Under the pieces are notes generated by a model. That model worked only from the letters and a program-made list of their open reading frames with translations. It searched no databases and was not told the origin of the DNA. Of a stretch of 64,000 nt of DNA, positions 8,356-41,304 are shown piece by piece. The stretch's first letter is position 1; every line of letters begins with the position of its first letter. Where the stretch lies: assembly GCF_001618865.1 (NCBI RefSeq), contig NZ_CP015136.1, positions 3,383,001 through 3,447,000 of the forward strand. Direction: 5' to 3'. Made by a program: the position numbers and the translations under genes. Source of the stretch: Luteitalea pratensis. GTDB lineage: Bacteria > Acidobacteriota > Vicinamibacteria > Vicinamibacterales > Vicinamibacteraceae.

Positions 8356-8994
8356 CGAGTTCTACAAGTCGCGCGTCGTTCTCGTGCGCTGGATGGTGTC
8401 AACGCCGGGCGCCGATACCCCCGGGGGCATCGATACCCCCAAATCGGAAGGTACCCCCAGAAATACCCCCACGCGTTTGTGGAAGGAAGGCGGTTCGGGA
8501 AAGGAGTGGAGCAGTGCCGCGCGCCCGTGGTGGGCTGGTTTGCTAGGCGCGCTGCACGCTGAAATGCTGGACGCCCATGAACAGCCATGGACGCCTGTGT
8601 ACCGCTGTGGACGAATGGTGGAGGCGGCGGGAGTCGAAGCGCTGGCGGTAACTAGCTCGTTGACAGCAACTTGAGCGCACTGCGCACGAGTTCCGTACCC
8701 CCGTTTGTACCCCCACGCTCGGTTCGAATAAATTGGCCAAGCAGTTTGGCGGTCGTTCACATCGACGACGAGACTTTGCCCGCGAAACTGCAGGATGTCC
8801 GTGCACAGTCGCCCGGCGCATGCCATTGGTCCGAGGCTCGTGCGGTTCCATCGGGCCGCGTCGGAGTCGTCGTGCGGTCGCACTTGGAACGGCAGCACCA
8901 TGTCCAGGTTTCTCGTCGATGCCGCGGTCGCCTCTTCTCGAGTGCTGGGCGACGAGAACTCGCGCAGGAATGTGCAGAATGTCCGTGCACACAG
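8356..8994. repeat. att-like cassette, copy 1
   Basis: A non-coding cassette. Four direct repeats of GATACCCCC/GTACCCCCA start at 8414, 8432, 8451 and 8463. The core is at 8616-8638. Two further repeats start at 8695 and 8707. The left boundary carries GCGAGTTCT near 8355 and the right boundary carries AGAACTCGCGC near 8957 inside a ~40-bp repeat that continues to AATGTCCGTG. The same arrangement recurs five more times in the window. Bases 8995-9090 look like decayed sequence also found beside copy 2. No gene is supportable in 8268-9120. Confidence 0.75.
8616..8638 (-). other. att-like core: tmRNA/tRNA 3'-end sequence (copy 1)
   Basis: The plus strand reads GGTGGAGGCGGCGGGAGTC. Its complement is the 3' half of a T-arm followed by an acceptor strand CGCCTCC, a discriminator A and CCA, as at the 3' end of a tmRNA or class II tRNA. 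No 5' half of such an RNA lies nearby, so this is an attachment-site copy, not a functional RNA gene. Confidence 0.7.
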
Positions 8995-9120
8995 CGCGGC
9001 ATTGCTCAACGCCACCCACCGTGATGCAACGCATCACAACTGCCAAGCTCGGGTTCGCTTCGAAGAGTGGGTGGGCTTTCAGTGCTAGTGCCGTAAGGGT
9101 GGTGTGAGGCCCGTCATTCA

Positions 9121-11910
9121 TCATCGTCCCGACGCCGCAACACGTCGTCGCACCTCGTCGAAGAAGTTCAGCATTAGCGTTACCTGCTGCCGCGCCGGTT
9201 GCGGCGCCTCGGCCGAGAGCACCGCGGCGAAGCGCTTGCCGTCGGGCGCCAGATCGAACGTCCCGATGAGCCCGAGATTGTGCAGGCGCCGATCGGACCA
9301 CACGCGTGGCCGCCCCGCGACGAATGTGTCGTTCGTTGCGGTGTACGGGACGACCATCAGGCGGAGATCCTCCGCGCGGTAGAACAGTTCGGTCGCGGTG
9401 CGCGACCACACGGGAAATATGCCACCAGCCGTCGAAATCGACCACTGCCTGCCCGTGTCGGGAAAGGCGCGCATGTGGACTTCGTGCCGACCCGAGTCGG
9501 TCGACATGTACGCCATCCAGCGCCCATCCGGCGAGAAGGCCGGACTGGAGTTGTTCGATGTCGCCTGCTGGTAGGGCACGGCCTCAGTGATCCGCAGTCT
9601 GCCGGCGTCGACGTCGACCGCCGCGGTCTGAATGAGAAGGCCACGATCGGGCGAGACCTCGAAGAAGGCGAGCCGCTTGCCGTCCGGAGTGAACGACGTG
9701 GGGATTTGAATCGGCTTCTGGCTCGCCCACAGGGGCAGGGAGGGGCTCGCCCCGTCGGCGCGCGCCCAGAACAAGCGACCCGAGGATTGGAAGACCACGT
9801 GTTGTCCATCTGGACTCCAGACAGGATTTCTCTTGAACCCCGAGCCCGCCGTCAGTTTCGTGCGGGTCCCCCGCTGCCAGTCGTACACCCAGATGTCGGA
9901 GGTTGTTCCCTCGTTCAACTCGAAGGCGACACGGCTGCCGTCAGGCGACACGCGAGGGTACTGGTAGAACGCCGGCGCCAGGCCCATCGATTCGGTTCGT
10001 CCCGTGGCGTCCAGCCATTCGAGGACCCGGAGTCCGCTCGTCGTACCGCTCCGGTAGACCATCGTGCCGCCGCGAGACACGTCGATCTGTGCGGCTCCGA
10101 ACTCGGGGTCGGCAGCGATTCCCTCGAGCACGGGAATGGCATCACCGCGCACTTCGCGTCGCTCGAGATCGAACGGCACCACGTATAGCGTGCCCTTCGA
10201 CACGTACGCCAGGTGCCCGGTGCGCAGGTAGCGAGGCGCCATGCCTGCGTTCGGGAGCACGACCTTCTGGACGTTGCGCTCGAAGTCCATGACGGCGATG
10301 TCGGCCGAATCGAAGTTGCCTGCCGTCCGGAAGATGGTGAACAGGGCCGCGGTGCCCCCCGGCAGGAAGTGTGGCCAGCGATGTGTCCGTTCTCCGGGCG
10401 CGAGCTTCGTGGCCGGCGTGACCCTTCCTCCGTCAATCGGCACCAGCGACAACACGATGCGGCCGGGTGCATCCAGTGCCGCCACGATCGTCCCGTTCTC
10501 GCCCCAACTCCCGCCCCGGCCCGCCGGCGCGTCGCACAGCGTGACCGGCTCACCGCCAGCGATGCGAAGCTTCTTCAGCTTGCCGTCTGCAAAGAAGCCC
10601 ACCCACTCGCCGTCAGGCGAGAAGAACGGTGCATACGCAGCGGCGGTGCCGGGCAACGGAGTCGCGTCCAGTTGATCGAGGCGGCGCGTCGAGAGGCCCT
10701 GGACGCCGGCACGGTTCGTCGAGACGAACACGATGCGCTTGCCGTCTGGGTCAAGGATGAACGTGGCGCCGATGGTTGCGGCACCGGTCATGAAATCGGA
10801 GCCCAGGTCGAGCGCCATGCTGTCCGACGCGCGCAGGGGGGGCTCGGGGGGCGCACCCACACGGAACCATGCCAGGGCGGCGATCGTCGCCGCAACCATC
10901 GCCACGGCGATGGCCGCATTCGGCCACCGGAGCAGGCGACGCCGCACCGGAAGCGGGTTCGAGCCTTCGGCTGGAGAGTCCGTGCGGCTTTCGGCAACCC
11001 ATCGCAACTCGCCGCGGACATCGCCCATGTTCTGCCAGCGCTCGTCCGGAGCCTTCGCGAGACACCGCGCCACGACGTGGTCCAGCAGGCGAGGGGCCAG
11101 TGGCTGGTACAACGAGATCGGTCGCGGCTGATCTCGCAGGATCGCCCCGATGATCGCCGCGGCCGAGGGACCGTCGAATGGACGATGACCGGTCGCCATC
11201 TCGTAGACCACCGCGCCGAAGGCCCAGATGTCGCTCCGCGCGTCGGCCTCTCGGCCCTCGACCTGCTCGGGCGCCATGTAGTGCAGCGTCCCGACGAGGG
11301 TGCCCGCCGTCGTGACCGCCGGCTCGGGCGCGAGTTGCGTGACGGCTCGCCCTGCGTCCACTGTCGACGGCGCCAGCGCCTTCGCCAGGCCGAAGTCCAG
11401 CAGCTTCGCCCCGGTGCTCGTCAGCATGATGTTGGCCGGCTTGAGATCGCGATGTGTGATGTGGGCGCGATGCGTGCGCTCCATCGCGCCCGCGACCTCC
11501 TGGCCGATGCGCAGCACGTCGTCGAGCGGCAGCGGACGCGTGGTCGCGAGCCGCGCCGCCAGGGTTTGTCCCTCGAGACACGGCATCACCAGGTACAGCA
11601 GGCCGTCGTGCTCGCCGACATCGTAGACGCTGCAGATGTGCGGATCGTCGAGGGCGGCGATGGCGCGCGCCTCACGTTCGAAGCGCGCACGCAGATCGGC
11701 GTCGGCGCTGCCAGCGATGTGCGGCGCGACGACCTTGAGAGCGACAGTGCGACCGAGGCGCACGTCGCGCGCGCGGTACACCTCGCCCATGCCCCCGGAT
11801 CCGAGGTGGCTGAGGATTTCGTACGAGCCCACTCGCTCACCAAATGCGAGACGTATGCCGTTGGCCATGGTCGGCGCGCGGCCGCGGGCCTCGAGCCCGG
11901 CCTGCCTCAC
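9121..11910 (-). CDS. Ser/Thr protein kinase with TolB-like propeller
   Basis: A 929-residue PknB-type receptor kinase. The kinase domain spans about 29-300: glycine loop GSGGMG (37-42), Lys in ALKVV (59), HRDLKPAN (153-160), DFG (172-174), MAPEQ and SDIWAFG. A transmembrane segment follows near 330-350 (WPNAAIAVAMVAATIAALAWF). The C-terminal 560 residues are PD40-type propeller repeats (SPDG, TPDGKRL) expected outside the membrane. It is predicted to phosphorylate cytoplasmic targets in response to an external signal. Unlike the other kinases here it has no adjacent ECF sigma gene. GTG 11910 is the longest start; ATG 11868 (MANGIRLAFGERVGSYEI) fits the family better. Neither has a clear ribosome-binding site. 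Confidence 0.9.
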   Translation of the reverse strand: MRQAGLEARGRAPTMANGIRLAFGERVGSYEILSHLGSGGMGEVYRARDVRLGRTVALKVVAPHIAGSADADLRARFEREARAIAALDDPHICSVYDVGEHDGLLYLVMPCLEGQTLAARLATTRPLPLDDVLRIGQEVAGAMERTHRAHITHRDLKPANIMLTSTGAKLLDFGLAKALAPSTVDAGRAVTQLAPEPAVTTAGTLVGTLHYMAPEQVEGREADARSDIWAFGAVVYEMATGHRPFDGPSAAAIIGAILRDQPRPISLYQPLAPRLLDHVVARCLAKAPDERWQNMGDVRGELRWVAESRTDSPAEGSNPLPVRRRLLRWPNAAIAVAMVAATIAALAWFRVGAPPEPPLRASDSMALDLGSDFMTGAATIGATFILDPDGKRIVFVSTNRAGVQGLSTRRLDQLDATPLPGTAAAYAPFFSPDGEWVGFFADGKLKKLRIAGGEPVTLCDAPAGRGGSWGENGTIVAALDAPGRIVLSLVPIDGGRVTPATKLAPGERTHRWPHFLPGGTAALFTIFRTAGNFDSADIAVMDFERNVQKVVLPNAGMAPRYLRTGHLAYVSKGTLYVVPFDLERREVRGDAIPVLEGIAADPEFGAAQIDVSRGGTMVYRSGTTSGLRVLEWLDATGRTESMGLAPAFYQYPRVSPDGSRVAFELNEGTTSDIWVYDWQRGTRTKLTAGSGFKRNPVWSPDGQHVVFQSSGRLFWARADGASPSLPLWASQKPIQIPTSFTPDGKRLAFFEVSPDRGLLIQTAAVDVDAGRLRITEAVPYQQATSNNSSPAFSPDGRWMAYMSTDSGRHEVHMRAFPDTGRQWSISTAGGIFPVWSRTATELFYRAEDLRLMVVPYTATNDTFVAGRPRVWSDRRLHNLGLIGTFDLAPDGKRFAAVLSAEAPQPARQQVTLMLNFFDEVRRRVAASGR

Positions 11911-12296
11911 GTGCGCTGTAATGCCTACGCAATGGCCCTGATGGTACCGCAGACAGCGTGCACGCTCGCTCGATCGGCAAGCACTCGATCCGCCATCTGT
12001 GGTGCCATCCCGAGGCAGCGGTTAGATTGATGAGGTACTCGAGGAGCGCCGGGTCCAGCCGACTGGATAGGTCGGCCATGGCGGTCAGCGCGTTTCCCGT
12101 CGGGCAGGTTCTTCAACCGGTGCGAGTGCAGCAAGCCCTCGAGCACATCTTGCCGTCGTGGGTGAGAGCTGACACCCACGCGCTCGTTTGTTGCTTGCCG
12201 ATCGACCGCCAGCAGGCGCGACCCGTCGCTACGGTTTGCCACGAATGGCGGCCGAGTAGACACCGTGCTCACAGATCGTCTCCAGCCTGTAGCGCT
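11911..12296. other. Gap without a supportable gene; short dispersed repeat
   Basis: No convincing gene. Around 11965-12030 the sequence resembles a stretch at about 59440-59505: both contain GCTCGATCG, then ATC-C-CCAT-TGTGG and CCATC-CGAGG. In the plus frame both translate to a similar string (ARSIGK-SI-HLW). The origin is unknown. Confidence 0.3.
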
Positions 12297-12590
12297 TCAC
12301 CAACGACGTAGCCTGCCCTGACGGTCGGCGTCGAGCACGGCGCGTGCGACGGTGCGTCCGAGGGCGCGTCCGATGTCGTTGTCGAACCGATAATGGGCGC
12401 CGGCATACAGGCGCGACTCCGCACCTTCAGTCGCCTGCCTCGACGCTTCGGCCGCGTCCTGCGGTAGTAATGCGCCGATGGCCGTCTCCGCCGCCCCGAC
12501 CAGACACCCGTGGCCGGACGGATAGCAGCCCGTGGTGAAAGTATCGCCTGAGTCGATCGGAGGGATCGACACGATCGATCGCGCTCGATA
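12297..12590 (-). pseudogene. C-terminal remnant of a PAP2-superfamily phosphatase/haloperoxidase
   Basis: The minus strand encodes CYPSGHGCLVGAAE and, 45 residues later, ESRLYAGAHYRFDND with a following ALGRTVARAVL. These are the second and third signature motifs of PAP2 acid phosphatases and vanadium haloperoxidases (PSGH, and SR-x5-H). The upstream two thirds are missing; reading runs backward into the transposase gene at 12603, so an insertion probably removed it. A complete relative with the same fold lies at 48311. Confidence 0.6.
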
Positions 12591-12602
12591 GACTGGCTGC
12601 GC

Positions 12603-13961
12603 ATGGCCATGGGCACCCGTCAGGATGAACAACCGCCGCTGTGGATCGCGACCTCGGACCTGCCGACCGCGCCTGGACATCCGTTCTACGCGCAGTTGAA
12701 TACGGTGCTCGACGCGGCCGGCTTCGACGCCTTCGTCGAGGCCGAATGCCGCCGGTTCTACGCGGCGGTGATGGGACGCCCCGGGCTGGCGCCGGGTCGG
12801 TACTTCCGCCTGCTTCTCCTCGGGTACTTCGAGGGCCTCGGCTCCGAGCGCGGCATTGCGTGGCGGGCCGCCGATTCGCTGGCGATCCGCCGCTTCCTAC
12901 ATCTGGGGCTCGAGGACGGCACGCCGGATCATTCGACCATCTCCCGCACGCGGCGGCTGATCGACGTCGAGACCCATCGGGCGGTCTTCACGTGGGTCCA
13001 GACGCAATTGGTGGCGCACGGCCTGCGGCGCGGCGAGACCGTGGCGGTCGATGCGACCACGCTGGAAGCCAACGCGGCGATGCGCAGCATCGTGCGGCGT
13101 GACACGGGCGAGACGTATCAGGCCTACCTCACGCAGCTTGCCGCGGCGTCCGGCATCACGACGCCGACGCGCGAGGCGCTGGCGCGCTTCGATCGTCGGC
13201 GCAAGAAGCGGAGTTCCAACCAGGACTGGACGCATCCCCACGATCCCGACGCGAAGATCACCAAGATGAAGGACGGGCGGACGCACCTCGCGCACAAGGC
13301 CGAGCACGCCGTCGATGTCGACAGCGGGGCGGTCGTCTCGGTGCGCCTGGACGGGGCCGACGTCGGCGACGCCACCACGGTGATCGACACGGTCGTGGAC
13401 GCGACGACCCAACTGGAACGGGCCGGTGCGCCGCATCACCTCGATGACCTGATCGGCGACAAGGGCTACCACAGCAATCGGGCGCTCATCGACCTGGACG
13501 CGCTCAGCGTGCGTGCCTACATCGCCGAACCGGATCGGGGCCGTCGCTGCTGGCGGGCGCTGCCGGACGCGCAAGCGCTGGTCTACGCGAATCGGCGGCG
13601 TCTCCGCGGGGCGCGGGGCGGACGCCTGCGCCGGCAGCGCGCCGAGTACGTCGAGCGCTCCTTCGCGCACCTCTATGAGACCGGCGCGATGCGGCGCACG
13701 CACCTCCGTGGCCATCAGAACATCCTCAAGCGGCTCCTGGTGCATGCGGGCGCCTTCAATCTCGGGCTGATCATGCGACAGCGGATCGGCCACGGCACCC
13801 CGCGGGGCTTCCAGGGCCGTCTCGGGGTGCTGGCCGGCGTCCTCACGGCCCTCGCCGGCCTACTCGCCGACCGCTGGGTCGTCCTGCCGGGCACCGAGCC
13901 CGTGTCGATGCCCCTGCCGCCCGACACCATCGACGACCTCGCCGCTGCGATGCCGGCGTGA
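12603..13961 (+). CDS. IS1182-like DDE transposase
   Basis: A 452-residue transposase of the IS1182/IS5-related type. It has an N-terminal DUF772-like region (PGHPFYAQLN through LRLGLEDGTPDHSTISRTR), first catalytic Asp in VAVDATTLEANAAM, second Asp in LIGDKGYHSNRAL, and catalytic Glu in YVERSFAHLYETGAMRR followed by RGHQNILKRLLVHAGAFNL. The ORF is full length, so it may be active. I could not identify terminal inverted repeats by eye: left flank 12540-12602 and right flank 13962-14020 show no clear match. It probably truncated the PAP2 gene on its left. Confidence 0.85.
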   Translation: MAMGTRQDEQPPLWIATSDLPTAPGHPFYAQLNTVLDAAGFDAFVEAECRRFYAAVMGRPGLAPGRYFRLLLLGYFEGLGSERGIAWRAADSLAIRRFLHLGLEDGTPDHSTISRTRRLIDVETHRAVFTWVQTQLVAHGLRRGETVAVDATTLEANAAMRSIVRRDTGETYQAYLTQLAAASGITTPTREALARFDRRRKKRSSNQDWTHPHDPDAKITKMKDGRTHLAHKAEHAVDVDSGAVVSVRLDGADVGDATTVIDTVVDATTQLERAGAPHHLDDLIGDKGYHSNRALIDLDALSVRAYIAEPDRGRRCWRALPDAQALVYANRRRLRGARGGRLRRQRAEYVERSFAHLYETGAMRRTHLRGHQNILKRLLVHAGAFNLGLIMRQRIGHGTPRGFQGRLGVLAGVLTALAGLLADRWVVLPGTEPVSMPLPPDTIDDLAAAMPA

Positions 13962-13997
13962 GTCAGTGACTTGCGCCACGGGCTGCTAGGCTTGTCG

Positions 13998-14017
13998 CCG
14001 GGCAGTATACTACCCGG
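13998..14017. promoter_or_regulatory. 20-bp near-perfect palindrome upstream of ECF sigma gene
   Basis: CCGGGCAGTATACTACCCGG is self-complementary apart from one mismatched pair. It ends 52 bp before the probable sigma start. It could be an operator or part of the promoter of the following gene, or the end region of the preceding insertion sequence. Confidence 0.35.
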
Positions 14018-14069
14018 TGCCGCCGGGAGTCGGAGCCCTGGACGGGACCGCTTGAGGGGTTGGCGAAAC

Positions 14070-14663
14070 GTGCCAGGCGACATTACGCAACTGCTCGAGG
14101 CGTGGAGATCGGGCGATGCTGAAGCAGGTGAGCAGCTCGTGGCCCTGACATATGGCGAGCTGCGCCGAATGGCTCGCGCCCGTCTTCGGCGCGAGCGGCC
14201 CGGCCATGCCTGGCAGACAACGGCGCTCCTCCATGAGGCCTACCTGCGACTGCTGCGGCACGGTCCCGGTTTGGTCGACAATCGCGACACCTTCTTTCGG
14301 CTGATGGCCGCCGAAATGCGACGCCGCCTGGTCGACCACGGCCGTCGGCGCCTGGCTGAAAAGCGCGGTGGCGGCGCTATCCATGAACCACTGCAGACAT
14401 CGGCGACGCGTGCGGTGGCCCAGGCTCCCGAGGACATCGAGGCGATGCTGGAGCGCCTGGATCGGGCACTTGAAGAGTTGAGCAATCGTCTTCCCCGCGC
14501 TGCCCGCGTCGTTCGACTGCGGTTCCTTGACGGTCTGACGATGGAAAGCACCGCAACGGAATTGGGCCTCTCAACGGGCACCGTCAAGCGCGAGTGGACC
14601 TTCGCGCGGGCGTGGCTCGCTGCCGCCATCGAATCCGATCCGATGGCCAGCACGGAAGGATAG
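14070..14663 (+). CDS. ECF-type RNA polymerase sigma factor
   Basis: A 197-residue sigma-70 family factor of the extracytoplasmic-function type common in Acidobacteriota. Region 2 spans GDITQLLEAWRSGDAEAGEQ through DNRDTFFRLMAAEMRRRLVDHGRRR, and region 4 has a helix-turn-helix in LDGLTMESTATELGLSTGTVKREW. The start chosen is GTG 14070 because MRHGLLGLSPG upstream is unlike the family. No kinase or anti-sigma gene follows directly, unlike the sigma genes at 22834 and 37392, so it is an orphan here; an IS lies immediately upstream. Confidence 0.85.
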   Translation: MPGDITQLLEAWRSGDAEAGEQLVALTYGELRRMARARLRRERPGHAWQTTALLHEAYLRLLRHGPGLVDNRDTFFRLMAAEMRRRLVDHGRRRLAEKRGGGAIHEPLQTSATRAVAQAPEDIEAMLERLDRALEELSNRLPRAARVVRLRFLDGLTMESTATELGLSTGTVKREWTFARAWLAAAIESDPMASTEG

Positions 14664-14900
14664 TTCTCCTTCAGGCGTCGGGCACCCCGCCGACGCGCAC
14701 CTCCCCGCCCCGCCAAACGCCGGAAGGTGGCGCGCTACTCGCGCGCGGGCGTTCGATGATCCATTTTCCGATTGTTTGCGCCATTGGAGGTAGAGCGCGT
14801 TCCCCGCCAACCAACGACGTCGTCAGGCATGGGAGCGCGCGCCGCGTCTCGAAGGCCATCCGACGGGCGGCGCAAGCTGTGTCCGTGAAGAGGGAGTGTT

Positions 14901-15272
14901 ATGCGACAGCATCGTCAGCGAACAAGCCATTGGGTCCACAACGGGGTCGCTTTCGCCCTGACAGCACTGCTGGGCGGCCTGCTGACTGCCTCATCCGTCG
15001 CTGCGATTGATCAGCCTCATCGTGGTTGCGGCGGCGGCTTCGAACTTGGCAGCCTGACATTCGCTGCGAGCATCCAGCTCCCGCGCATCCAGGCTGCCTT
15101 GCAGGAGGGCATCTACGATACGGCGGAATTCGCTTCCCTCTTTGACGTAATCGATCAGAACGGCGATGGGCTTGTGTGCTTCCAGGATGTGGGCGCATTG
15201 AACGACGGTGCGGGCAAGTGGCAGTTCTTCTACAACGCGGTCGACAACAATTCCGCGCACGAGGACTGGTAA
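14901..15272 (+). CDS. Small secreted protein with EF-hand-like loop
   Basis: 123 residues. There is an N-terminal signal peptide (about 1-36; hydrophobic core VAFALTALLGGLLTASSVAA). An EF-hand-like calcium-binding loop is visible at DVIDQNGDGLVCFQD (about 82-96), with Asp/Asn/Asp/Gly spacing typical of dockerin or EF-hand loops. The rest is not recognised. GGGAG precedes ATG 14901. Confidence 0.65.
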   Translation: MRQHRQRTSHWVHNGVAFALTALLGGLLTASSVAAIDQPHRGCGGGFELGSLTFAASIQLPRIQAALQEGIYDTAEFASLFDVIDQNGDGLVCFQDVGALNDGAGKWQFFYNAVDNNSAHEDW

Positions 15273-15485
15273 TTTCAACTCGGATTTGCGGCGCTCGCAG
15301 CCAGGGAGCGTCGCACTCGCATCGCTGATACGGGTTGTGAGGAGTTGGTGCGTCCGGGTGTCTACGCTTCACTCGCGACGCCTTCGGCGAAGCGTCTGCG
15401 GGAGACTCGCCGCGAGGCGTGCCATGGGTCGCGGCGGCTCTAACGCGCCACATCCCACGAATGCGTTCGGGATACGGGAGGCCTG

Positions 15486-15842
15486 ATGCTGTTGCCGCGT
15501 CGTGCCCCGCGCCGCGCGCTGACTGCCCGCGTCGCGCCAGTGGGTCGGGGCACCGAGCGCCTCGCGGCGGCCGCGGCCACGGTCATCGTGATCGTCACCG
15601 ATGCCGAACAGCCGGTGGGCCTGGACGATGGCGCGCTCTCGCAGTTGTTCGGGTTGACGCCCGCGGAGTCGCGCCTGGCGCGGTTGCTCGCGGAAGGGCG
15701 GGACGTCACGGAAGCCGCGACCATGCTCGGCCTGACGATCGGCACCGTTCGCACCCGGCTCAAGACGGTGCTGCACAAGACCGGCACACGCCGGCAGTCG
15801 GCGCTCGTGCAGGTGTTGCGGGCGGCGAGTAACGCTGGCTGA
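15486..15842 (+). pseudogene. C-terminal fragment of a LuxR-type HTH regulator
   Basis: 118 residues carrying an intact LuxR/GerE helix-turn-helix (FGLTPAESRLARLLAEG, then GLTIGTVRTRLKTVLHKTG). The N-terminal 50 residues resemble the segment just ahead of the HTH in longer acidobacterial LuxR proteins (ARVAPVG, then VIVIVTDAEQP). The expected 200-250-residue sensory part is missing upstream, so this is most likely a truncated gene. A free-standing small HTH protein remains possible. Confidence 0.5.
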
Positions 15843-15869
15843 TTGCTTCACTCCCAAATGGGACTCGCC

Positions 15870-15902
15870 GCGCCGTGGCCATCTTTTCCATAGTCACGGC
15901 GC
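15870..15902. promoter_or_regulatory. 8-bp inverted repeat upstream of fibre-like gene
   Basis: GCGCCGTG and CACGGCGC form a perfect inverted repeat separated by 17 bases, lying between the LuxR fragment and the next gene. It could be an operator or a weak terminator; there is no T-tract. Confidence 0.3.
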
Positions 15903-15998
15903 ACTACCAGTGATGGTGTACCTGCTCTGGCTGTGTAGATGCGGCCGGTGAGGCGTTCATCCGATGGCCAAGCGCCTCGGAACAGGGAAGGACCCCGC

Positions 15999-18612
15999 AT
16001 GTATCGGATCACGAGAGACGCCGCACCGCTGTTGGCGTATGTCACGAAGCTGCTGCTCACCGCCGGTCTCGTTCTGGGACCTGCCGTCGCCGCAAACGCA
16101 GACGACATCTATTGGTCCACCAGCGCCGACCGGTCTGGCAGCGTCCTGCTGAACGGCGCGACCGTGCAGGGCAACGTCTACGTGGTATTCGCGCCGAGCA
16201 CCTTGTCGGTGAGTCAGATCGAGGACGTGGAGTTCTTCGTCGACGGCACCCAGGTGGGTAAGGACGTGCGTACTCCCTACGACCTCGCCGGCGGCTCGGT
16301 CAGCGCAGCCAAACCGTACGATACCGTCAGAGAACTCGTCGATGGCCAGCACTCGATCCAGGCGGTCGTGACGCTCAGCGATCGCACGACCCGAACCTTT
16401 GCAGCATCCTTTCACGTCAACAATGCCTCCGCGCCCGTCGCCTGGGGACGCCCTGCGCATCCTCAGCGTGACCGTCGACGCCTCGACACGGACACTCACG
16501 CTGCTCGGCTACAACTTCAACAGGGGGGGCGACGCGATTGTCTCGCTGGACCTGCAGCCGCTGCCCGTGACCGGTGGGGCAGACGACTGGTTGACGGCGA
16601 CGCTGCCGCGCAGATGCGCGGATGGCGATCACACCGTCAATGTCAGCACGGACGGCACCTTTGCGCCCGGCCTCTCCGACGACGACCATGCCGAACTGCT
16701 CGTCACGTTCGGTGCTGTGGGACCGCAGGGGCCTGCCGGTCCGGAGGGGCCGCCGGGCCCGACCGATCTGGTCGCGCTCGACGCGCGCTACTCACCAATG
16801 GGTCATGGTCATGCGGTGAACCAAGTGGCGGGAGCCGCGACGCTCGGCGCGAACTCCTTCAACGGCAACCAGAACATCAACGGTCTGCTGACCGCGACGT
16901 TCGGACAGTTCTCTGGGGTGTTCTCATCGGTGAATACGCCCGGCAGCACGGCGCTTCGGGGCTCTTCCACTGTCACCGTCGGCCAGGGTTTCGGGGTGGC
17001 GGGGGTAACCTCGGCCAGTGTCAACCTGAGCGCAGGTGTCTACGGCGCCGCGCTGCACCCTACCGCCTTCACCCATGGGGTCTTCGGCGAAAGTCTGGGC
17101 AGCGGCCCCGCGATCCGTGGAATTGGTCGCAATGCCGTGAGTGGAGTGGGCATCGACGGTACGTCAGAAGGCACTGCGGGCGTGGGTGTCATAGGGCAGG
17201 TCATCGCGTCGACGGGCACGGGCACAGGTGTGCTCGGATCCGTTAACAGCCCGAACGCGACGGCCGCGGTGTTCCAGAACAACGGCGGCGGTACGCTGAT
17301 CATCGGCAGGGCCGGTGGCGACAAGTTCCGCGTCGACGGCTCGGGGACGGTCTTCGCCAACGACTACCGCGATCTTGCAGGCAACCCCATCGTCACCAAC
17401 ACCGGCGACATCACCGGTGTCTCGGCTGGCGCCGGCTTGTCCGGAGGCGGCGCGTCCGGAGCTGTCACTCTGTGGCTCGACACCACCTTCACCAACGCGC
17501 TCTACGCCCCGCTCTCCCACGGTCATTCCGTTGCGGCGATTAGCGGCGCTGCGACACTCGCCACCAACACGTTCTCCGGGACGCAGACGATCGGCGGCAA
17601 TCTCGAGCTCGGCACGTCGAGCTCCACGAGTGGCAACATCACCAAGAACGGCTCGACGTTCCTCCACGCGCCTGGGGCCTCGAACGTCTTTCTCGGCAGT
17701 GGCGCCGGCAATGCCGGTGTGTCGGGCGGGCTCAATTCGGGCATCGGCGCCGAGGCACTTGCGGCCATCGGCTCCGGACACAGCAACGCCGCCGTCGGAT
17801 ACCGCGCCCTGCAGTTCACGAGCTCTGGGCTGGCCAATGCGGCGCTCGGGTCTGAAGCGCTCCGCGCCAACACCACGGGCAGCTCGAACGCCGCCGTGGG
17901 GCAGGGCTCCCTGCGGCAGAACACGATAGGTGGGCAGAACGTGGCGGTCGGTTCCAATACCCTCAGCACGAACGGCGTTGGACGCGAGAATACCGCCTTG
18001 GGCCAAGGGGCATTGTTCGCGAACTCGTCGGGCGTCGCCAATACGGCGGTCGGACAGTCCGCCGGCTCCAACGCCACGATCGGGTCGAACAACATCTATC
18101 TTGGTGCGGGCGTGCTCGGCGCGGCCGGTGAGTCGAACACGATGTACCTCGGCTTGCAGGGAACGCAGACGCGGGCGTTCGTCGCCGGGGTCCGCGGCGT
18201 GACGACACTCAACGCCGATGCCATTCCCGTGATGGTGGACTCGGCAGGTCAATTCGGCACGGTGTCGTCGTCGCGGCGGGCGAAGGAAGACATCCACGAC
18301 ATGGGCGACCGAAGCCGACGCGTCCTCGCTCTTCGTCCGGTCACGTTCCGCTATACACAGGCTTACCGCGACGGCGCGAAGCCTCTTCAGTTCGGGCTCA
18401 TCGCCGAGGAAGTCGCCGACGTCTTTCCAGATCTGGCGGTGCGCAATTCCGCCGGCGACATCGAGACCGTGCACTACGAGACGCCCAACGTGCTCCTGTT
18501 GAACGAGGTACAGCGGCAGCAACAGGAACTCGCCGAGCAGCGTAACCGGATCGAGCAACTGGAGAAGCGACTCGAAGCAGTGCTGTCGGCGCGGATTCCG
18601 AGTCGGCGCTGA
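15999..18612 (+). pseudogene. Frameshifted secreted collagen-like/S74 fibre protein
   Basis: Two overlapping frames make one protein of about 870 residues. Frame one (ATG 15999, GGAAGGA upstream) encodes a signal peptide (LLLTAGLVLGPAVAANA) and an Ig-like domain ending FHVNNASAPV. Near 16425-16445 reading must shift to the frame that continues PGDALRILSVTVDA to 18612. That frame has a collagen-like linker (GPQGPAGPEGPPGPTD), glycine-rich beta-helix repeats, NTA-x-G-x-AL type head repeats as in phage fibres and trimeric adhesins, and a C-terminal peptidase S74/intramolecular chaperone domain (SSRRAKEDIHDM, FGLIAEEVADVFPDL, then a coiled coil). The likely job is a surface fibre that trimerises through S74. 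A single-base indel, a real mutation or a sequencing error would explain the shift. Confidence 0.7.
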
Positions 18613-18838
18613 GGATCGCCGACCGCGGGCCGTCTCCCCTCACAGGCTCGCGCGGTGGCCAGGCCACGCCCGCCGTGCGTGGGCGTGATCCGATTCGGTG
18701 GACGGGTTGACCACGCCGCTTGAGCGGAGAGCCGGCGCTCGAATGCTGCGCGTGAATAGTCCCGTCGTCACGTCGGTCCGGTGAGTCAGAGGCCCGTGGG
18801 CGCCCCGGGCCTCGAGCGCCCCGTAAGATTCCTGCACG

Positions 18839-19500
18839 CGAGCGAGTTCTAGGAGTAGGCAGCGATAAGCGTAGCGGGCTCCTGCGGCGAAGGCGAGGGT
18901 GCGATGGTAGCGATTGGGCTACGGGGGCGCGGCGATACCCCCAGGGCATCGATACCCCCAAATCGCCACGTACTCCCAAAAGTCCCCCCGCCGCGCACGG
19001 GTGCGAGGCGGACTCTGGCAGCCACCTGCGCTACCAACCGACCAAAAGGTCGTGAATTGTTAGGAAAGTGTTGAGGCAGAGCCGGACGTCCATGGATTGC
19101 CATGGACGCCTACGGACAACTCTGGACAAATGGTGGAGGCGGCGGGAGTCGAATGGCCACTTTGTAAATCAATGACCAACAGCTACTTAACTGTTGCTGC
19201 TGCTGAGATCCATACCCCCAGATATACCCCCACAGTAAGCTCGATACTCTTTTGTCCAGCGCGCTCTCGCCGGTAATGGCCTGAGACGCAGCGACTTCGA
19301 GTCAATCGCGGAGCAGTACCGGGTGGTGCCCAGCCCGACCCTCCTTAGTTCGGCACGTAAAAAGTACCGCGGCTGAGCCGGCGCCATGCCTGCAGCAGAA
19401 TCATGTCTGTATTCGGCGGCATGCTCGCGGTACTCGTCCTGTGGACTTTCCCGTCCTGGCTGACGAGAACTCCCGCGCGGAAGTGCGGAATGTCCGTGGA
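18839..19500. repeat. att-like cassette, copy 2
   Basis: Left repeats start at 18934 and 18951 (GATACCCCC), 18970 (GTACTCCCA) and 18982 (GTCCCCCC). The core is 19131-19153. Right repeats ATACCCCCA start at 19212 and 19224. A 9-bp perfect hairpin CGTCCATGG/CCATGGACG lies at 19087-19108, 22 bases from the core. The left end carries GCGAGTTCT near 18839 and the right end AGAACTC near 19461. About 80 bp left of the core (19010-19090) is nearly identical to copy 4. Nothing coding is supportable in 18613-19504. Confidence 0.75.
19131..19153 (-). other. att-like core: tmRNA/tRNA 3'-end sequence (copy 2)
   Basis: Same core as copy 1 (GGTGGAGGCGGCGGGAGTC on the plus strand) with full CCA complement. 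It is followed by unrelated bases after GTCGAA, so homology to the RNA gene stops inside the T-loop. Confidence 0.7.
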
Positions 19501-19504
19501 CACA

Positions 19505-19773
19505 GCCGTGCACCAACGCCACCAGCAGACAGCGCATCACTCGTGTGGCGAGCAGTGCGTCGATCTGAGCGCTTGCGTTCTCCACTCCGCGTCCGCCAGC
19601 ACGACTGGGACACGTGTTGACGCCGTTGCGCCCTGACTGGCGGTGAGGAGTACGGCCACGCTGTGGCCCGGTGCGAACGCAGCGGCCACGTGTAATCCCA
19701 GAATCCGCCGCGAGAAGTTGTCGATCGCAGGGTGGCTTCCCGCGCTCGTCTTTCGCCGACACGATGGCGACAA
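19505..19773 (-). pseudogene. Integrase-core transposase fragment (frameshifted)
   Basis: The minus strand reads AIDNFSRRILGLHVAAAF, then VAVLLTASQGATAS and PVVLADAEW, matching the catalytic-core start of DDE integrase-type transposases (the Asp of IDNFSRR and of LADAE). It then shifts frame to GVENASAQIDALLATRVMRCLL. The fragment is cut where the ~40-bp repeat of cassette 2 begins. It may be the partner of the N-terminal relic at 1248. Confidence 0.55.
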
Positions 19774-19827
19774 TGCGCGGGTCAGACTGCAAAATGTCCG
19801 TGCAGAGAGCTGGGTGGGCAGTCGGGG

Positions 19828-22764
19828 TTAGCGCGGCGGATGGGGGGCGAGCCGCTCAAGCTCCTGGAACCAATTGAGGATGATGCGCAACTCGATCGGC
19901 CCTTCCATTGCCCTTGGTGAGAGCATCAGAAAGCGACGTCCGTCAGGCAAAGGCATGATCCTGTGCTGAGCATCACGTCGTTCGTTCAGAGGTCGCGTGT
20001 AACCCACGCGCAGGCCCGGGTGGGTCTGGACATCGGCGACCATCATTCGACCTGCACTTAGAAACAGGAGCTGCCCGCCGGTGATCCATGCAGGCCTGTC
20101 CCCTTCCTCCGCAGAGATAGCGGTCCGAGGGCCGGGCCCGGGAAACGGCTGCACGTAGACGTGGCTGACACCGCCGTCGTCGGCCTCGAAGGCGATGAAT
20201 CGGCCATCAAGAGAAAACCTCGCCTCCCGCTCGTTGGACGGACTGGAGAGGAGTGGCATCGCCTTGCCATCCGAGTAAATCCAGACGTCCGTATCGCCGC
20301 GATTCGTGTACTCGCTGAACAGAAGCGATTGGCCATCCGGAGACCAGTCCTCGAGCATCAGCGACGATCGGCCACGCATCAGCAACTCCGCGGAGCCAGT
20401 CCCATCCGCACGCTTCCGATAAACCGAGCTGTCGCCGGGCGTCGACCAGTAGGTGATGAATCTACCGTCCCGGCTCCAGATCGGCTGAAAGCTGTCGCCC
20501 TCGGGGACGAGCAGGCGCTTTGCACCGCGCTCCAGATCGAGCACCCACACCTGCACCTTCGTTCCTTCCACGAGATCACCCGCTACCTCCAGGCCATCCG
20601 GCGAGAGGGCAGCGGTATAAAATGGCACTCGCCCGCCGGGCACGGGAGTGGCGTTCCCGTCGCGGTCCAGCCAGCGGAGTCCTGCCTCCTGGACACGGTT
20701 GGCGGCTATGTAGATAACGGTGCCGTTATCGGACAGCGCCACGTTCGAGTGCCGACCGTCGTGATCGATGCCATGCAGGACGGGAGTGGGATCACCAACG
20801 GGCTCGAATCGCTGGTTCACTGGCACGGCCCGTAGCGCGTCGCCGTCCGAGAACACGAGATGGCCCGTCCCGGTGTAGCGCGCCACGACGTTGCTGCCAC
20901 CGCGCAGCAATCGTCGCCTCTTTCCCGTCTCACGCGACAGCACATCGAGCCAAGTTCCGCCGTCGCCAGCGCTTGCGACGAGAAGATCATTGCTACCCGG
21001 TACTCGCCCTCGCAGTGAAATCAATTCGCCGTCGGAGCGATCCCGCACGGCGATCGCTGTGGGCGTGCCGCCGCTCGCGGGGATCGACCAGAGTTCACCC
21101 AGTTGATTGCCACCTTCGATCACGATCTCGTCGTTGGAGGTCCAGAGCGCAACGATCGGAACGAGCGTCTGAGCAATTGCGATCGGAGGACCGCCCGCGA
21201 GCGACACTTTGCGGAGGGTGCGATCTTCCGCTCGCCAGAAGCCGATCCACTGGCCGTCTGGTGAGAAGAACGGCGTGGTCGCTTGCTCGGTACCAGGAAT
21301 GGGCCGGGTGTCGAACCCAGACAGCTCGCGCAGAAAGAGTTGGGATCGTCCGTTGCCGCGGGCGCGGAAGACGAGCCGCGTGCCGTCGGGCGAGAGGGCG
21401 AACGGCGTGAAGAACCTGTCCACCGGAAGTCGAAGATTCTCGGCCGTGTCACCCTCGATCTTCAGGGACAGCCGGGCGACGGCGCTCGCCCTGTGCGCGG
21501 TTGGCCAATATCCTCCGAACCAGGAAGCCAATCGCGTGGCGATTGCAAGAAGTGCCGCCGCACCCAGGAGGAGGGCAGCAGCAGTCTTCCAAGTGAGCCG
21601 CTCCCGACGGTGGGCCGACGGTTCCGCGGCTCCATCGGCCGCGAATCTCGTCGATGCGATCGGCTTGCTGGCGTCCTCGAGCTCGATCAGCGCGTCGGCG
21701 ATGTCGTGCAACCGCTTGTGTGGATCCTTTCGCAGGCAGCGCTCGAGCAACCTTCGGACCGGCGGGGGTGTCTGCCCAGCGGGCAGCGCAGCCCAATCGG
21801 GCTCGTGTTCCAGAATGCGGACGAACGTGTCCGACATCGTCTCGCCGCCAAATGGCGGGTGGCCTGCCAGCATTTCGTAAAGGACGCAACCGAACGACCA
21901 GACGTCCGTGCGCTTGTCCACCACCTGGCCGCGCGCCTGCTCGGGGCTCATGTAGGCCGGCGTTCCGAGGATGCGCCCGTCCGCTGTGTCGTCACCCCAG
22001 TCCGAGGGAGGGTGAGTCAGGTCACGGTCCCGCCGGAGTGTCATCGTCTTGCCGAGGCCAAAGTCGAGCACCTTCGCGCGCGTATCGCTCGATAGAGGCC
22101 CAGATGCGGTCGTGGCACCCTGCAGCACGATGTTCCGCGGCTTCAGGTCCCGGTGGACGACGCCGTTCTCGTGTGCCGCGTCGAGCGCTTCGGCAAGCTG
22201 GCGCCCAACCGCGATTGCATCGGGGATGGGCAGCGGTCCGCGCGCGAGACGATCGGCAAGGGTAGGGCCCTCGACCAACTCGAGGATCAAGGCCGCGACC
22301 CCATCGATGTCCTCGAGACCGTAGATCGCGCCAATGTGGGGATGATTGAGAGTGGCGAGGAGGCGGGCTTCGCGCGCGAAGCGGGAGCGACGCTCGGGGT
22401 CTCCGGTGAAGTGTGACGGCAGGATCTTGATCGCGACGTCGCGTCCGAGCTTGCTGTCGTGCGCCCGATAGACCTCGCCCATCCCGCCGGCGCCGAGGAG
22501 CGCGACGATCGTATATGGCCCGAGTTGACGGCCCATCATCTGAGTTCTGTCACGCGTTCGCGCAAGGCCCCCTGCCGCAACCGCCGCGGGTGTTTCTAGG
22601 AAACGGGCCGCATCGAACTCGTACCGGAGCAGCGACTCCACTTCCTCGCGAAGCGCGTGATCTCCTTTGCATGCGTGCTCCAGGAACCCGCGGCGCTCCT
22701 CGGGCGCACACTCCAGCGCCCGATCGTGCAGATCAGCAATGCGGTCTCGGGACCCGGGATCCAT
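19828..22764 (-). CDS. Ser/Thr protein kinase with TolB-like propeller
   Basis: A 978-residue kinase with an N-terminal helical extension (about 1-75, ALECAPEERRGFLEHAC) typical of kinases paired with ECF sigma factors. Kinase domain about 83-350: GAGGMG (91-96), Lys in AIKIL (113), HRDLKPRN (204-211), DFG (234-236), YMSPEQ and TDVWSFG. One transmembrane helix (about 395-420, AAALLLGAAALLAIATRLA) and a large PD40 propeller to the end follow. The sigma gene at 22834-23439 lies 69 bp upstream on the same strand, so the two probably form an operon, a very common acidobacterial pairing. All catalytic residues are present. Confidence 0.92.
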   Translation of the reverse strand: MDPGSRDRIADLHDRALECAPEERRGFLEHACKGDHALREEVESLLRYEFDAARFLETPAAVAAGGLARTRDRTQMMGRQLGPYTIVALLGAGGMGEVYRAHDSKLGRDVAIKILPSHFTGDPERRSRFAREARLLATLNHPHIGAIYGLEDIDGVAALILELVEGPTLADRLARGPLPIPDAIAVGRQLAEALDAAHENGVVHRDLKPRNIVLQGATTASGPLSSDTRAKVLDFGLGKTMTLRRDRDLTHPPSDWGDDTADGRILGTPAYMSPEQARGQVVDKRTDVWSFGCVLYEMLAGHPPFGGETMSDTFVRILEHEPDWAALPAGQTPPPVRRLLERCLRKDPHKRLHDIADALIELEDASKPIASTRFAADGAAEPSAHRRERLTWKTAAALLLGAAALLAIATRLASWFGGYWPTAHRASAVARLSLKIEGDTAENLRLPVDRFFTPFALSPDGTRLVFRARGNGRSQLFLRELSGFDTRPIPGTEQATTPFFSPDGQWIGFWRAEDRTLRKVSLAGGPPIAIAQTLVPIVALWTSNDEIVIEGGNQLGELWSIPASGGTPTAIAVRDRSDGELISLRGRVPGSNDLLVASAGDGGTWLDVLSRETGKRRRLLRGGSNVVARYTGTGHLVFSDGDALRAVPVNQRFEPVGDPTPVLHGIDHDGRHSNVALSDNGTVIYIAANRVQEAGLRWLDRDGNATPVPGGRVPFYTAALSPDGLEVAGDLVEGTKVQVWVLDLERGAKRLLVPEGDSFQPIWSRDGRFITYWSTPGDSSVYRKRADGTGSAELLMRGRSSLMLEDWSPDGQSLLFSEYTNRGDTDVWIYSDGKAMPLLSSPSNEREARFSLDGRFIAFEADDGGVSHVYVQPFPGPGPRTAISAEEGDRPAWITGGQLLFLSAGRMMVADVQTHPGLRVGYTRPLNERRDAQHRIMPLPDGRRFLMLSPRAMEGPIELRIILNWFQELERLAPHPPR

Positions 22765-22833
22765 AGGCCTGCCTCCCGGTCAGGGGGTCCAACCCGAAAA
22801 GACGCGAAGAACCGCCCCACCACCTGTGATGCG

Positions 22834-23439
22834 TCAGCGGCCAGTGCTGTTGCGCGAAAGCTCTCGCAGTAGCCAGTTCTTCGCGAACTTCCAGTCCCTC
22901 ATCACAGTCTCAGGAGAAACCTTCAACACCTCGGCCGTTTCCTCGACGCCCATCCCACCGAAGAACCGAAGCTCGACGACTTGGCTCTTTCGCTCGTACT
23001 GCGCCGCAAGCGCTCGAAGCGCATCGTCGATGTCTATCAGATCATCGGGCGTGTCGCTCGTGACGGCCAGGTTCTCATCGAACGTCAGGCGACGGAGTGC
23101 ACCACCGCGCTTCTGGTTCTGTTGGGCCCTGGCGTAATCCACGAGCACGCGCCGCATGAGCCGCGCAGCCATCGCAAAGAAGTGCGCGCGATCCTGCCAC
23201 TGCACCCGCCGAATATCCACCAGCCTGAGGTAGACCTCGTTGACCAGCGCGGTGGCCTGGAGAACGTGGTCCGGACGTTCCCCCGCCATGTGGCGCTTCG
23301 CGAGGCGCCGCAACTCGCCGTGCACGAGCGGGAGCAACCGTTCCACGGCTCCCGGGGCGCCGCCCCTCCATTCCATCAGAAGGGCTGTCACGTCGTGGGT
23401 TCTGTCATCAGACACGGGCCCGCCCATTCTACCTGCCAT
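22834..23439 (-). CDS. ECF-type RNA polymerase sigma factor
   Basis: About 200 residues with sigma region 2 (HDVTALLMEWRGGAPGAVER, WQDRAHFFAMAARLMRRVLVDYAR) and region 4 helix-turn-helix (FFGGMGVEETAEVLKVSPETVMRDWKFAK). The start is uncertain: ATG 23439 or ATG 23427 both fit; an extension to 23646 has atypical sequence and is rejected. It heads the operon with the kinase downstream. Confidence 0.88.
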   Translation of the reverse strand: MAGRMGGPVSDDRTHDVTALLMEWRGGAPGAVERLLPLVHGELRRLAKRHMAGERPDHVLQATALVNEVYLRLVDIRRVQWQDRAHFFAMAARLMRRVLVDYARAQQNQKRGGALRRLTFDENLAVTSDTPDDLIDIDDALRALAAQYERKSQVVELRFFGGMGVEETAEVLKVSPETVMRDWKFAKNWLLRELSRNSTGR

Positions 23440-23652
23440 CACATGACAGGTGTTCGTGTCGATTTGCGCCTCTCTTCCCGACGGGGGCGTTGGGTTCCCG
23501 GGGAACGGCGCCAAGCCTCGGGAACAAGCGTCTTCCAGCGGCGATAACGTTGACGAGACGCGGTCCATGAACGGTGGGCCCCAGATCCCAGCCGGCGGCG
23601 GTCCGGTCAGTGTGTAGTGTTTGTCACAGCTCGGCGGTCCCGGCAATGCCCA

Positions 23653-23671
23653 GATGATGATGATGATGATG
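23653..23671. repeat. GAT trinucleotide microsatellite
   Basis: Six consecutive GAT units between the sigma gene (minus strand) and the plus-strand gene at 23836. Simple repeats of this length are uncommon in GC-rich bacteria and can vary by slippage; here it is intergenic. Confidence 0.6.
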
Positions 23672-23835
23672 CGGGTCGGCGAATTCTTCTGATCCGACCC
23701 AGTCGCAAAGGTACGCCGCGAGATCGCGAGCGTAGTTTATGTCACTAGCTGGACGTGCTGGCCCTTTGGTCAGACTCCAGAGTTCGCGTGGGGATTGTGG
23801 CGACGAGGCATTTCGCGCTCGCTCTTAGGAGAGGA

Positions 23836-24711
23836 ATGTCAATGGCACAGGTAAGAGGAGATTCGTCGGTTGCAGGTCAAGTCGCAGTATTCGGTGGAAG
23901 CGTTGTCGCTCGCGGGGTTGAGGGCCATAGCACTAACGATCATGGCGTCGTTGGAGTGACCTTTGGTCCTGGCACCGGGGTGTTCGGCGTCGGTACCAAA
24001 GGCCGCGGAGTCGAGGGCGAGAGTACCGAGAATCACGCCATTGTTGGCACCAGCAAGGGGATAGGCACTGGGGTCTTTGGCGTTGGTACCAAGGGTCGGG
24101 GGGTTGAGGGCCAGAGCACCGAGAACCATGCCATTGTCGGCACCAGCAAGGGGACGGGCGCCGGGGTATTTGGCATTGCTGAGAAGGGCAACGGCGTCGA
24201 AGGCCACAGCACCAATCAGATCGGTGTGTTTGGAAAGGGCGGGCGCCTGGCTGGCAAGTTCGAAGGCGACGTCGAGGTGACCGGCGATATCCGGCTGGCC
24301 AATGCCGACTGCGCCGAGGACTTCACCGTTCATGGCGCGCAGGACGTCGAGCCAGGCACGGTGATGGTCCTCGAGAATGGCGGCACCGTGAGACCCAGCG
24401 ATCAGGCATTCGACACGCGAGTGGCCGGCGTTGTGTCCGGCGCAGGCACGTACAAGCCGGCACTCGTTCTCGACAGGCGTGCCGACAGTGCACACCGGCA
24501 GCCGATTGCCCTGATGGGCAAGGTGTTCTGCAAGGTAGATGCAACCTTCGGCGCGATTGGCGTCGGTGACCTGCTGACCTCATCGCCGACGCCCGGGCAT
24601 GCCATGAGGGCGGCTGATGCGAGCAGGTCGTTCGGCGCCGTCCTCGGCAAGGCGCTTCATCCGCTCGCGAGTGGACAAGGGCTGATCCCGATCCTCGTCA
24701 CCCTGCACTGA
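23836..24711 (+). CDS. Repeat-containing fibre-like protein, phage-tail-type C-terminus
   Basis: 291 residues from ATG 23836, preceded by AGGAGAGGA. Residues 25-117 are three 31-residue repeats built on GRGVEGxSTENHAIVGTSK and GTGVFGVGTK, followed by a partial unit, giving a repetitive beta-type fold. The C-terminal part (DVEVTGDIRLANADCAEDF, GTVMVLENGGTVRPS, GDLLTSSPTPGHAM, SFGAVLGKAL) resembles conserved C-terminal domains of secreted or phage-fibre-like proteins with a late signature 'GKAL'. No signal peptide is visible. It heads a plus-strand block with the next four genes; gaps are 67, 97, -4 and 1 bases. Confidence 0.7.
   Translation: MSMAQVRGDSSVAGQVAVFGGSVVARGVEGHSTNDHGVVGVTFGPGTGVFGVGTKGRGVEGESTENHAIVGTSKGIGTGVFGVGTKGRGVEGQSTENHAIVGTSKGTGAGVFGIAEKGNGVEGHSTNQIGVFGKGGRLAGKFEGDVEVTGDIRLANADCAEDFTVHGAQDVEPGTVMVLENGGTVRPSDQAFDTRVAGVVSGAGTYKPALVLDRRADSAHRQPIALMGKVFCKVDATFGAIGVGDLLTSSPTPGHAMRAADASRSFGAVLGKALHPLASGQGLIPILVTLH
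23908..24186 (+). repeat. Three tandem 93-bp in-frame repeats
   Basis: Units 23908-24000, 24001-24093 and 24094-24186 encode near-identical 31-residue motifs, with a degenerate partial fourth unit after them. Nucleotide similarity between units two and three is high, so copy number may vary between strains. Confidence 0.75.
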
Positions 24712-24778
24712 GCGGTTCATTGGTGCGCCTCACGACGGCAGTCGCTGTCCTGGGTGCTCGTCCTACGGAGTCACGATC

Positions 24779-26068: not shown

Positions 26069-26165
26069 CGCGTCCGCGTCTCCGGGACGACGGGGCGAGC
26101 GCGGCGCGCAAGGTCCGATGCAACACGACGCACGCGAAGTGGGCAGCGCGTAGAGGCGCGCAGCA

Positions 26166-28915: not shown

Positions 28916-28916
28916 C

Positions 28917-29705: not shown

Positions 29706-29961
29706 CGTGATCGCCGCTGCGATCCGATCCCTTCTATCGTCCCGTCTCTGTACGTTCGGGAGCCGCAAGCGCTCTATCGGTGCAGGCAGTCACACGGACA
29801 AGGGCGGGGCTGCACGGCAATGACCGGAGGCGAGGTCGGGTGTGTTCGTGCGTTGCCGGCTCATGTGAGACTGATTGTGCAACTCGAGCGAGCCCGTCGC
29901 ATTGCTACAGTGGTCGATGGGCGTCTCTCATCTCGAGCGGTATGAGGTGGCCCCGAAGCGC

Positions 29962-31792: not shown

Positions 31793-31857
31793 GCGGTGCG
31801 AGGCTCAGCCGCTTGGTGTCCGCGGACCTTCGTGCAAATGACGGGCAAGAGCATCGA

Positions 31858-32345: not shown

Positions 32346-32502
32346 CTGTGCGTCGAGACAGCTCGGACGCGCAACTGAATTGCGAGTGTCTGAACGGCCG
32401 TGATCCCTATTTACTCCGTTTGGGACGTTGGTAAGTGGCGGGCGAGTCACATGGCAGTGCCCGTCGGTGTTCTTCCACCACTAGTGCCAAACGGAGACGA
32501 TC

Positions 32503-34734: not shown

Positions 34735-34806
34735 CGGAGGCTCGAGCGATTTGGGGCAGAAGGAGGTGGGGCATCCATATGGGTGCCCTGCCCCTACCGC
34801 CGGCGA

Positions 34807-37967: not shown

Positions 37968-38156
37968 GTCAGGCCGATGGGTGAGATTTCGAGTATAGAT
38001 CGGCATGCCGCACCGGGGCCTCACAGCCTCGGACAGCGAATCGACACTCGATCGGCAGGCGGGCAGTCAGTTGGTGAGCCCAGCTCGTGTATGGGCGCGC
38101 GCGGGTTAGCGAGCGTCCGAGCGCTGGGGGATACATCGCGGACGGGTGATGGTCCG

Positions 38157-38815: not shown

Positions 38816-38862
38816 CCATGCTCTCAAGGGCGCGGTAATTGTGATAGGCCTGAAGTTTGGGA

Positions 38863-41010: not shown

Positions 41011-41066
41011 CCGTGTTGTGCGCCAGGACATTTCCGCACGCCGCAGCGCGAGTTGTGCCAAGTTGT

Positions 41067-41280: not shown

Positions 41281-41304
41281 TGGGCACGCCCGCGTCCCGG
41301 CTGG

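Follow-up and report, generated by a model that had tools for sequence, protein, structure and literature searches.

The question raised by this locus is why a set of short repeats recurs, in near-fixed positions, around successive copies of one short core in the chromosome of Luteitalea pratensis. Six such copies lie in the stretch of DNA analysed here (64,000 nucleotides; hereafter the window), and the first-pass annotation had read the repeats as arm-type sites belonging to an integrase that it did not name. As argued here, the repeats very probably recur because at least 15 gene islands are stacked end to end beside ssrA.

The att core, TGGTGGAGGCGGCGGGAGTCGAA, matches as its reverse complement the last 23 bp of ssrA (the tmRNA 3′ end), and an intact tmRNA gene, detected by ARAGORN on the minus strand, begins at the last core (position 3450224 of the single 7,480,314-bp contig of this genome, equivalent to window position 67224 and just outside the 64-kb window). 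Between 3242296 and 3450224 there are 15 cores with no more than one mismatch, another that differs by a deletion plus a mismatch, and a further, doubtful one, all in a single orientation, such that at least 16 same-strand island junctions span 208 kb, the six window copies being part of a larger array whose units range from 3.6 to 31 kb. A further core at 3137205, together with scattered arm repeats, gives the zone a length of 313 kb. A search of the genome with the 16 kb to the left of the array in the sister genome G001 did not locate the left border. The latter genome is colinear with L. pratensis from the core outward past ssrA (2313968 aligning with 3450223; 71–83% identity over 15 kb), but on the island side this colinearity is absent, save for att junctions and a few island pieces. 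Since the core is the end of the tmRNA gene, the copies share one orientation and synteny breaks at the core, the junctions are site-specific insertion points stacked at ssrA. A core formed by the 3′ end of a tRNA or tmRNA gene is typical of P4-type attP sites, and tandem islands bounded by direct repeats of ssrA are the arrangement described in Dehalococcoides. There was no Rfam match within the window, and one att block searched against each of the plasmid and phage collections gave no match.

Around these cores lie copies of a G/ATACCCCC repeat, counted here as TACCCCC units in a scan of every core. At copy 1 four repeats on the plus strand (8414–8470) lie in the right end of the island to the left, on what would be the integrase side, with spacings of 18, 18 and 12 bp, and end 145 bp before the core (8616–8638, minus strand, as tmRNA is read), while a distal pair (8695–8714, plus strand) lies in the left end of the island to the right. 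Copies 2 and 5 have the same layout, with quartets (18934–18989, the last two units degenerate, and 58393–58448, both plus strand) spaced 17, 18 and 12 bp that end 141 and 140 bp, respectively, before cores on the minus strand at 19131–19153 and 58589–58610, the latter with one base deleted and one changed; their distal pairs, on the plus strand, are at 19212–19231 and, with one mismatch, 58669–58688. Copies 3 and 4 (cores 31996–32018 and 41486–41508, minus strand) lack the left repeats and retain the distal pair (32076–32095 and 41567–41586, plus strand). At copy 6 the first three repeats (61394–61438, plus strand) are separated from the fourth by an IS21-type element inserted on the minus strand into the arm sites (61445–63507; IstB 61509–62342, rve transposase 62339–63376), and the last two units (63511–63530, plus strand), although degenerate, are still 140 bp before the core (63671–63693, minus strand, one mismatch), which has no right pair and is followed by a right side of another att type. 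The next core is that at 67224, the 3′ end of the intact tmRNA gene.

The geometry that had been proposed is thus largely borne out. The left repeats of copies 1, 2, 5 and 6 end 140–145 bp before the core, as claimed, and the right pair of copies 1–5 is always 12 bp apart, starting 57, 59, 58, 59 and 59 bp after it. Of the left spacings given earlier as 17–18, 19 and 12 bp the outer values are correct, whereas the middle one is 18, and the statement that the arrangement surrounds every core holds for copies 1, 2 and 5, but not for copies 3 and 4, without left repeats, or copy 6, without the right pair, as the annotation's own list of copies already implied. Spacing within the quartet hardly varies, as the annotation had supposed; the distance to the core is less constant, as at two junctions outside the window the quartet lies 129 bp from the core, and is therefore narrow rather than fixed.

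These placements are far from what random positions give. When 17 cores were taken within a 340-kb region, 46 of the 54 forward-strand occurrences of TACCCCC fell in the two expected intervals around them, and the other strand of the region held 6 in all. Quartets with at most two mismatches are present at 8/17 junctions versus 2/2816 random places, and right pairs with at most one mismatch at 12/17 versus 4/2816; arm repeats on both sides of a core, here eight left quartets and twelve right pairs over the 17 junctions, are a feature of P4-type attP sites. Across copies the repeats show a similarity of 0.96–1.00; the DNA separating the later left repeats scores 0.68–0.73 and that preceding the core block 0.35, a comparison that is biased because the repeats were picked by consensus. 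With that bias, such conservation of the arms would suit recent function. A coding origin of the repeats, raised earlier as one of two observations that would overturn the proposal, was ruled out, as no reading frame stays open throughout the copies and the repeats shift in phase from one to another. When collections of genome contigs and viral contigs were scanned for three TACCCCC units about 18 bp apart, the matches were nearly all tandem repeats of 18-nt period, for the most part apparently coding.

The units delimited by these cores carry diverse cargo. Unit 1 (8616–19131), with type A ends on both sides, encodes a Ser/Thr kinase with PD40 repeats, a transposase, an ECF sigma factor and an S74-peptidase-domain protein, and no integrase. 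Unit 2 (19131–31996) contains a kinase with an ECF sigma factor, the lysine epsilon-oxidase LodA with its FAD partner, and two IS transposases. A kinase and ECF sigma factor are again present in unit 3 (31996–41486), together with a GNAT acetyltransferase and a beta-propeller protein, while unit 4 (41486–58589) encodes an outer-membrane beta-barrel, a regulator with TPR, PAP2, PD40/PKD proteins and an amidohydrolase; both units are without an integrase. Unit 5 extends from 58589 to 63671. No phage structural gene, as would mark a prophage, was found among 40 window proteins scanned with Pfam, neither conjugation nor integrase genes were seen in the window units, and the ten proteins considered as possible defence cargo gave only generic kinase and TPR matches. 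The units are thus bounded by att sites and lack integrase and transfer genes, as cis-mobilizable elements (CIMEs) do, judged from the 40 predicted window proteins against Pfam and an integrase profile scan of all frames. Two tandem DDE transposase genes occupy 29994–31048, with 89% identity over 300 nt, and a related fragment lies at 41141–41275.

The annotation had argued from the two-sided arms that each cassette is a whole attP rather than a half site, which it considered odd and attributed to a cassette-borne or tandemly duplicated attP. Such a layout, however, is expected in any tandem array: islands of a single att type that follow one another in the same orientation will meet at junctions with the layout of attP, each junction being a composite of two neighbours' ends, the right end of the first island and the left end of the second. 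It could be argued that the arm–core–arm block is nevertheless the repeated unit, each cassette bearing its own complete attP, and the presence of arms on both sides at several window junctions is in keeping with this. A composite attP, in contrast, predicts that halves of different types will be found together, and this is what is seen. The junction at 3287431 joins a GCAACAG-type left half, and that at 3277041 an ACTTAGA-type left half, to a TACCCCC right half, while at 2280644 in G001 and in a contig of G004 TACCCCC left halves are paired with right halves of another type. Distances among left halves and those among right halves of the same junctions are likewise uncorrelated (r = −0.05, 10 junctions, 64% of shuffles as high), although the left and right ends of the same island are equally flat (r = −0.19, n = 9), so that the correlation test is weak and the mixed junctions constitute the stronger evidence. 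As tandem integration predicts the whole pattern with no special unit, and the mixed junctions largely refute a self-contained attP, we regard that explanation as very improbable. Marginally less probable still is segmental duplication, in which the junctions multiplied by homologous recombination as copies of one region. Some flanks are indeed alike over hundreds of bases, as at 3259513 and 3414996 (88% over 756 bp), but cargo differs between islands, homology at most junctions stops a few hundred bp from the core, all cores share one orientation, and the repeated sequence coincides exactly with the end of the tmRNA.

What kind of integrase would recognize these arms was examined by searching for the arm pair, GTACCCCCANNNGTACCCCCA, in 2.9 million viral contigs. 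The pair was found in 41, which include several fragments or repeats of another kind, and in eight of these an integrase lies no more than 165 bp away (in seven, within 20 bp; in the eighth, L314, the match to the P4 profile is weak). The reversed motif, used as a control, occurred in 7 viral contigs, none with an integrase. All five TACCCCC-associated integrases that were run on Pfam contain PF13356 (Arm-DNA-bind_3), PF22022 (Phage_int_M) and PF00589 (Phage_integrase), the build of P4-type enzymes, in which DUF4102 is the arm-binding domain (PMC8138268). In two other acidobacterial genomes the repeats precede tRNA-Ser, and in one of them an integrase adjoins the repeats; the 12-bp TACCCCC pair beside PF13356 integrases is thus what a P4-type attP would display. 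A second viral search, in which the tRNA/tmRNA end TGGTGGAG was required 100–130 bp downstream of the pair, returned ten contigs, all with a gap of 112–114 bp; six clearly contain ssrA ends, two of these being tmRNAs by ARAGORN. P4-type integrases with TACCCCC arms that target ssrA thus exist. Two other viral contigs have both arms around a core, the phage form. The annotation's reading of the repeats as arm-type sites on either side of an att core is therefore supported, and the integrase it had left unnamed can be placed in the P4-type (PF13356) class by motif, 12-bp spacing, orientation, distance and target. On this comparative evidence the TACCCCC repeats are predicted arm-type sites of a P4-type (Arm-DNA-bind_3/DUF4102) tyrosine integrase. 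Counting against this assignment, the distances differ somewhat, left arms lying 129–145 bp from the core in the array versus 112–114 bp in the viral relatives. The TACCCCC pair at 12 bp can serve as a marker for att sites of P4-type integrases even where the gene has been lost, so that orphan islands can be located and delimited.

In L. pratensis the gene would be expected, from the geometry, just to the left of the quartet on the minus strand, a place occupied in the window by ordinary cargo. No P4-type integrase, intact or decayed, was detected in the 340 kb by protein and profile searches of all frames, and none that is cognate was found beside any TACCCCC pair in the genome, so that the P4 assignment is based on motif and geometry. 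The genome encodes four Arm-DNA-bind integrases, two of which were assigned to loci by our own profile rather than by a listed Pfam hit, and the flanks examined contain no TACCCCC pair. P4-type elements carry the integrase gene beside the integrase-side arm, where here there is none; these are thus orphan sites rather than a complete element. The only tyrosine integrase remnants in the 340 kb are small C-terminal pieces at about 3287000–3287400 and at 3310072.

These remnants belong to a family of 370-aa tyrosine integrases, present in 42/193 genomes of the bacterial class, whose genes often abut ssrA or a tRNA gene; an intact member is located at ssrA in G001. Among the loci of this family (L229, L231, L235, L236, L240–L242, L246, L255 and L258) some abut ssrA and others a tRNA-Asp-like end. 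It could thus be proposed that a member of this family with altered arm specificity, rather than a P4-type enzyme, was the integrase of the TACCCCC sites. The family is known in G001, G002 and some 40 relatives, it uses the same ssrA core in the same genus, its arm pairs are also 12 bp apart, with other motifs (TGGAGAA, TGGAGAC, TGGCAAC and GCAACAG), and its decayed pieces lie in the array. Its integrase genes, however, have a 3′ end that abuts the core, with arms about 50 bp from it; the remnants are confined to junctions at which the left flank is not TACCCCC-type; and in other bacteria TACCCCC lies beside PF13356 integrases in matching orientation and order. We therefore consider this proposal unlikely. 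At least two integrase families have thus used the ssrA site in the genus, and the varying arm motif of the 370-aa family makes it a possible system in which to study changes in arm specificity. A serine integrase for the type A units was also considered and rejected, as these units lack a serine recombinase. Indeed, instead of the serine recombinase module of Dehalococcoides islands, the array contains a single small resolvase, in the ssrA-proximal island. This protein (PF00239; 3447648–3448025, about 64648–65025 in window numbering and outside it) has a related stretch, 81% identical over 386 bp, in G001, close to the left end of the ssrA island that carries the integrase there.

The locus is very probably a tandem array of islands at the ssrA 3′ end, with TACCCCC repeats as P4-type arm sites, built by an integrase that has been lost or acts in trans. 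Its observed basis comprises the identity of the core, the intact tmRNA gene, the common orientation, the break in synteny, the geometry of the arms and the occurrence of the motif beside P4-type integrases and ssrA elsewhere. Also in its favour are the mixed-type junctions and the smaller ssrA arrays that G001 and G002 have, with an integrase adjoining ssrA. Each site would be a junction between islands, the 23-bp tmRNA end having been copied at each integration, with four arm sites towards the expected position of the integrase gene and two on the far side. The array would have grown by accretion, a P4-type enzyme integrating islands site-specifically time after time; that enzyme would since have been lost, or be supplied in trans by a visiting phage or element. 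As no P4-type gene or remnant was found in the 340 kb and the four Arm-DNA-bind integrases of the genome lack such arms, the present units look like integrase-less, cis-mobilizable islands. A large array of integrase-less islands beside one tmRNA gene is thus described for a phylum abundant in soil, which raises the testable question of how such islands persist and move.

The closest precedent is provided by the ssrA islands of Dehalococcoides, which follow the gene in tandem on its downstream side and are delimited by 20-bp direct repeats of the ssrA 3′ end; of 31 islands, 15 have no module for integration and have been put forward as cis-mobilizable through accretion (McMurdie et al. 2011, PMC3146451). 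Those islands, however, have a serine recombinase module (DsiA/DsiB) and lie less than 100 kb from ssrA (PMC3146451), whereas here the arm sites are those of a tyrosine, putatively P4-type, enzyme, 16 same-strand junctions extend over 208 kb and no such integrase was found. Pseudomonas IntY islands are likewise located at the tmRNA 3′ end, flanked by direct repeats and without genes for self-transfer, but each has its own intY and alpA, and the word ‘tandem’ is absent from the text describing them (PMC12595487). Integrase-less units between att sites, and tandem arrays formed by repeated site-specific integration, are known from CIMEs and from the accretion of ICEs, IMEs and SGI1 (PMC5704250, PMC2297512); the present array differs in having at least 15 units of several att types at one site.

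The IntS protein of ICEMlSymR7A is, we presume, a P4-type (IntSXT; DUF4102, PF13356) integrase. Its attP has five arm sites in 283 bp (PMC11963761), and the junctions described here are similar in having several arm sites around a core within about 280–300 bp; they differ in the arm motif, TGKTGGTATC there and TACCCCC here, and in having no adjoining integrase gene.

A stronger version of the tandem-array explanation, and one compatible with it, is an integron-like platform: islands would always enter at ssrA and, as cassettes, would still come and go by means of an integrase acting in trans. The array is orphan, orderly and on one strand, and the arm sites are largely intact in many copies despite the absent integrase. 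An island at another array position in the sister species G001 matches the left end of unit 5 (58589) with 88% identity over 837 bp, which suggests that units have been transferred and hints at mobilization by a related element. Weighing against continued use, nothing points to excision at present or to a source of an integrase acting in trans, some sites are decayed or hit by an IS (copies 3–6), the islands, at 3.6–31 kb, are far larger than integron cassettes, and there is no intact integrase gene at ssrA nor, as an integron would have, an intact tyrosine recombinase anywhere in the array. The platform is thus a possibility to be entertained, though an unlikely one. We can offer only tentatively, as a rather improbable extension, that ssrA is a standing platform in this genus at which many integrase-less islands with intact att sites are added, reordered and lost by the P4-type integrases of passing phages; if true, part of the accessory genome of the host would be managed by borrowed enzymes.

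Three further features accompany the att sites. Far from the array, at 2079336–2079536, there is a lone perfect ssrA core (2079514; L001, L046) with a TACCCCC-type left half and no tmRNA, which could be a secondary site or the product of a rearrangement. The 72 bp before each TACCCCC-type core (window 8545–8615 and equivalents) form a conserved block with repeated CATGGAC/GGAC units, GGACGTCCATGGAnnnCCATGGACGCC...CTCTGGACGAA, which are perhaps sites for accessory factors. Finally, a 57-nt repeat, DENSRR-NVR when read as peptide, is present at window positions 8761, 8945, 19456, 19760, 31853, 38515 and 41301; at cores 1 and 2 it is found about 325 bp to the right, at the arm-less copies 3 and 4 it immediately adjoins the truncated left flank, and it may mark the end points of deletions.
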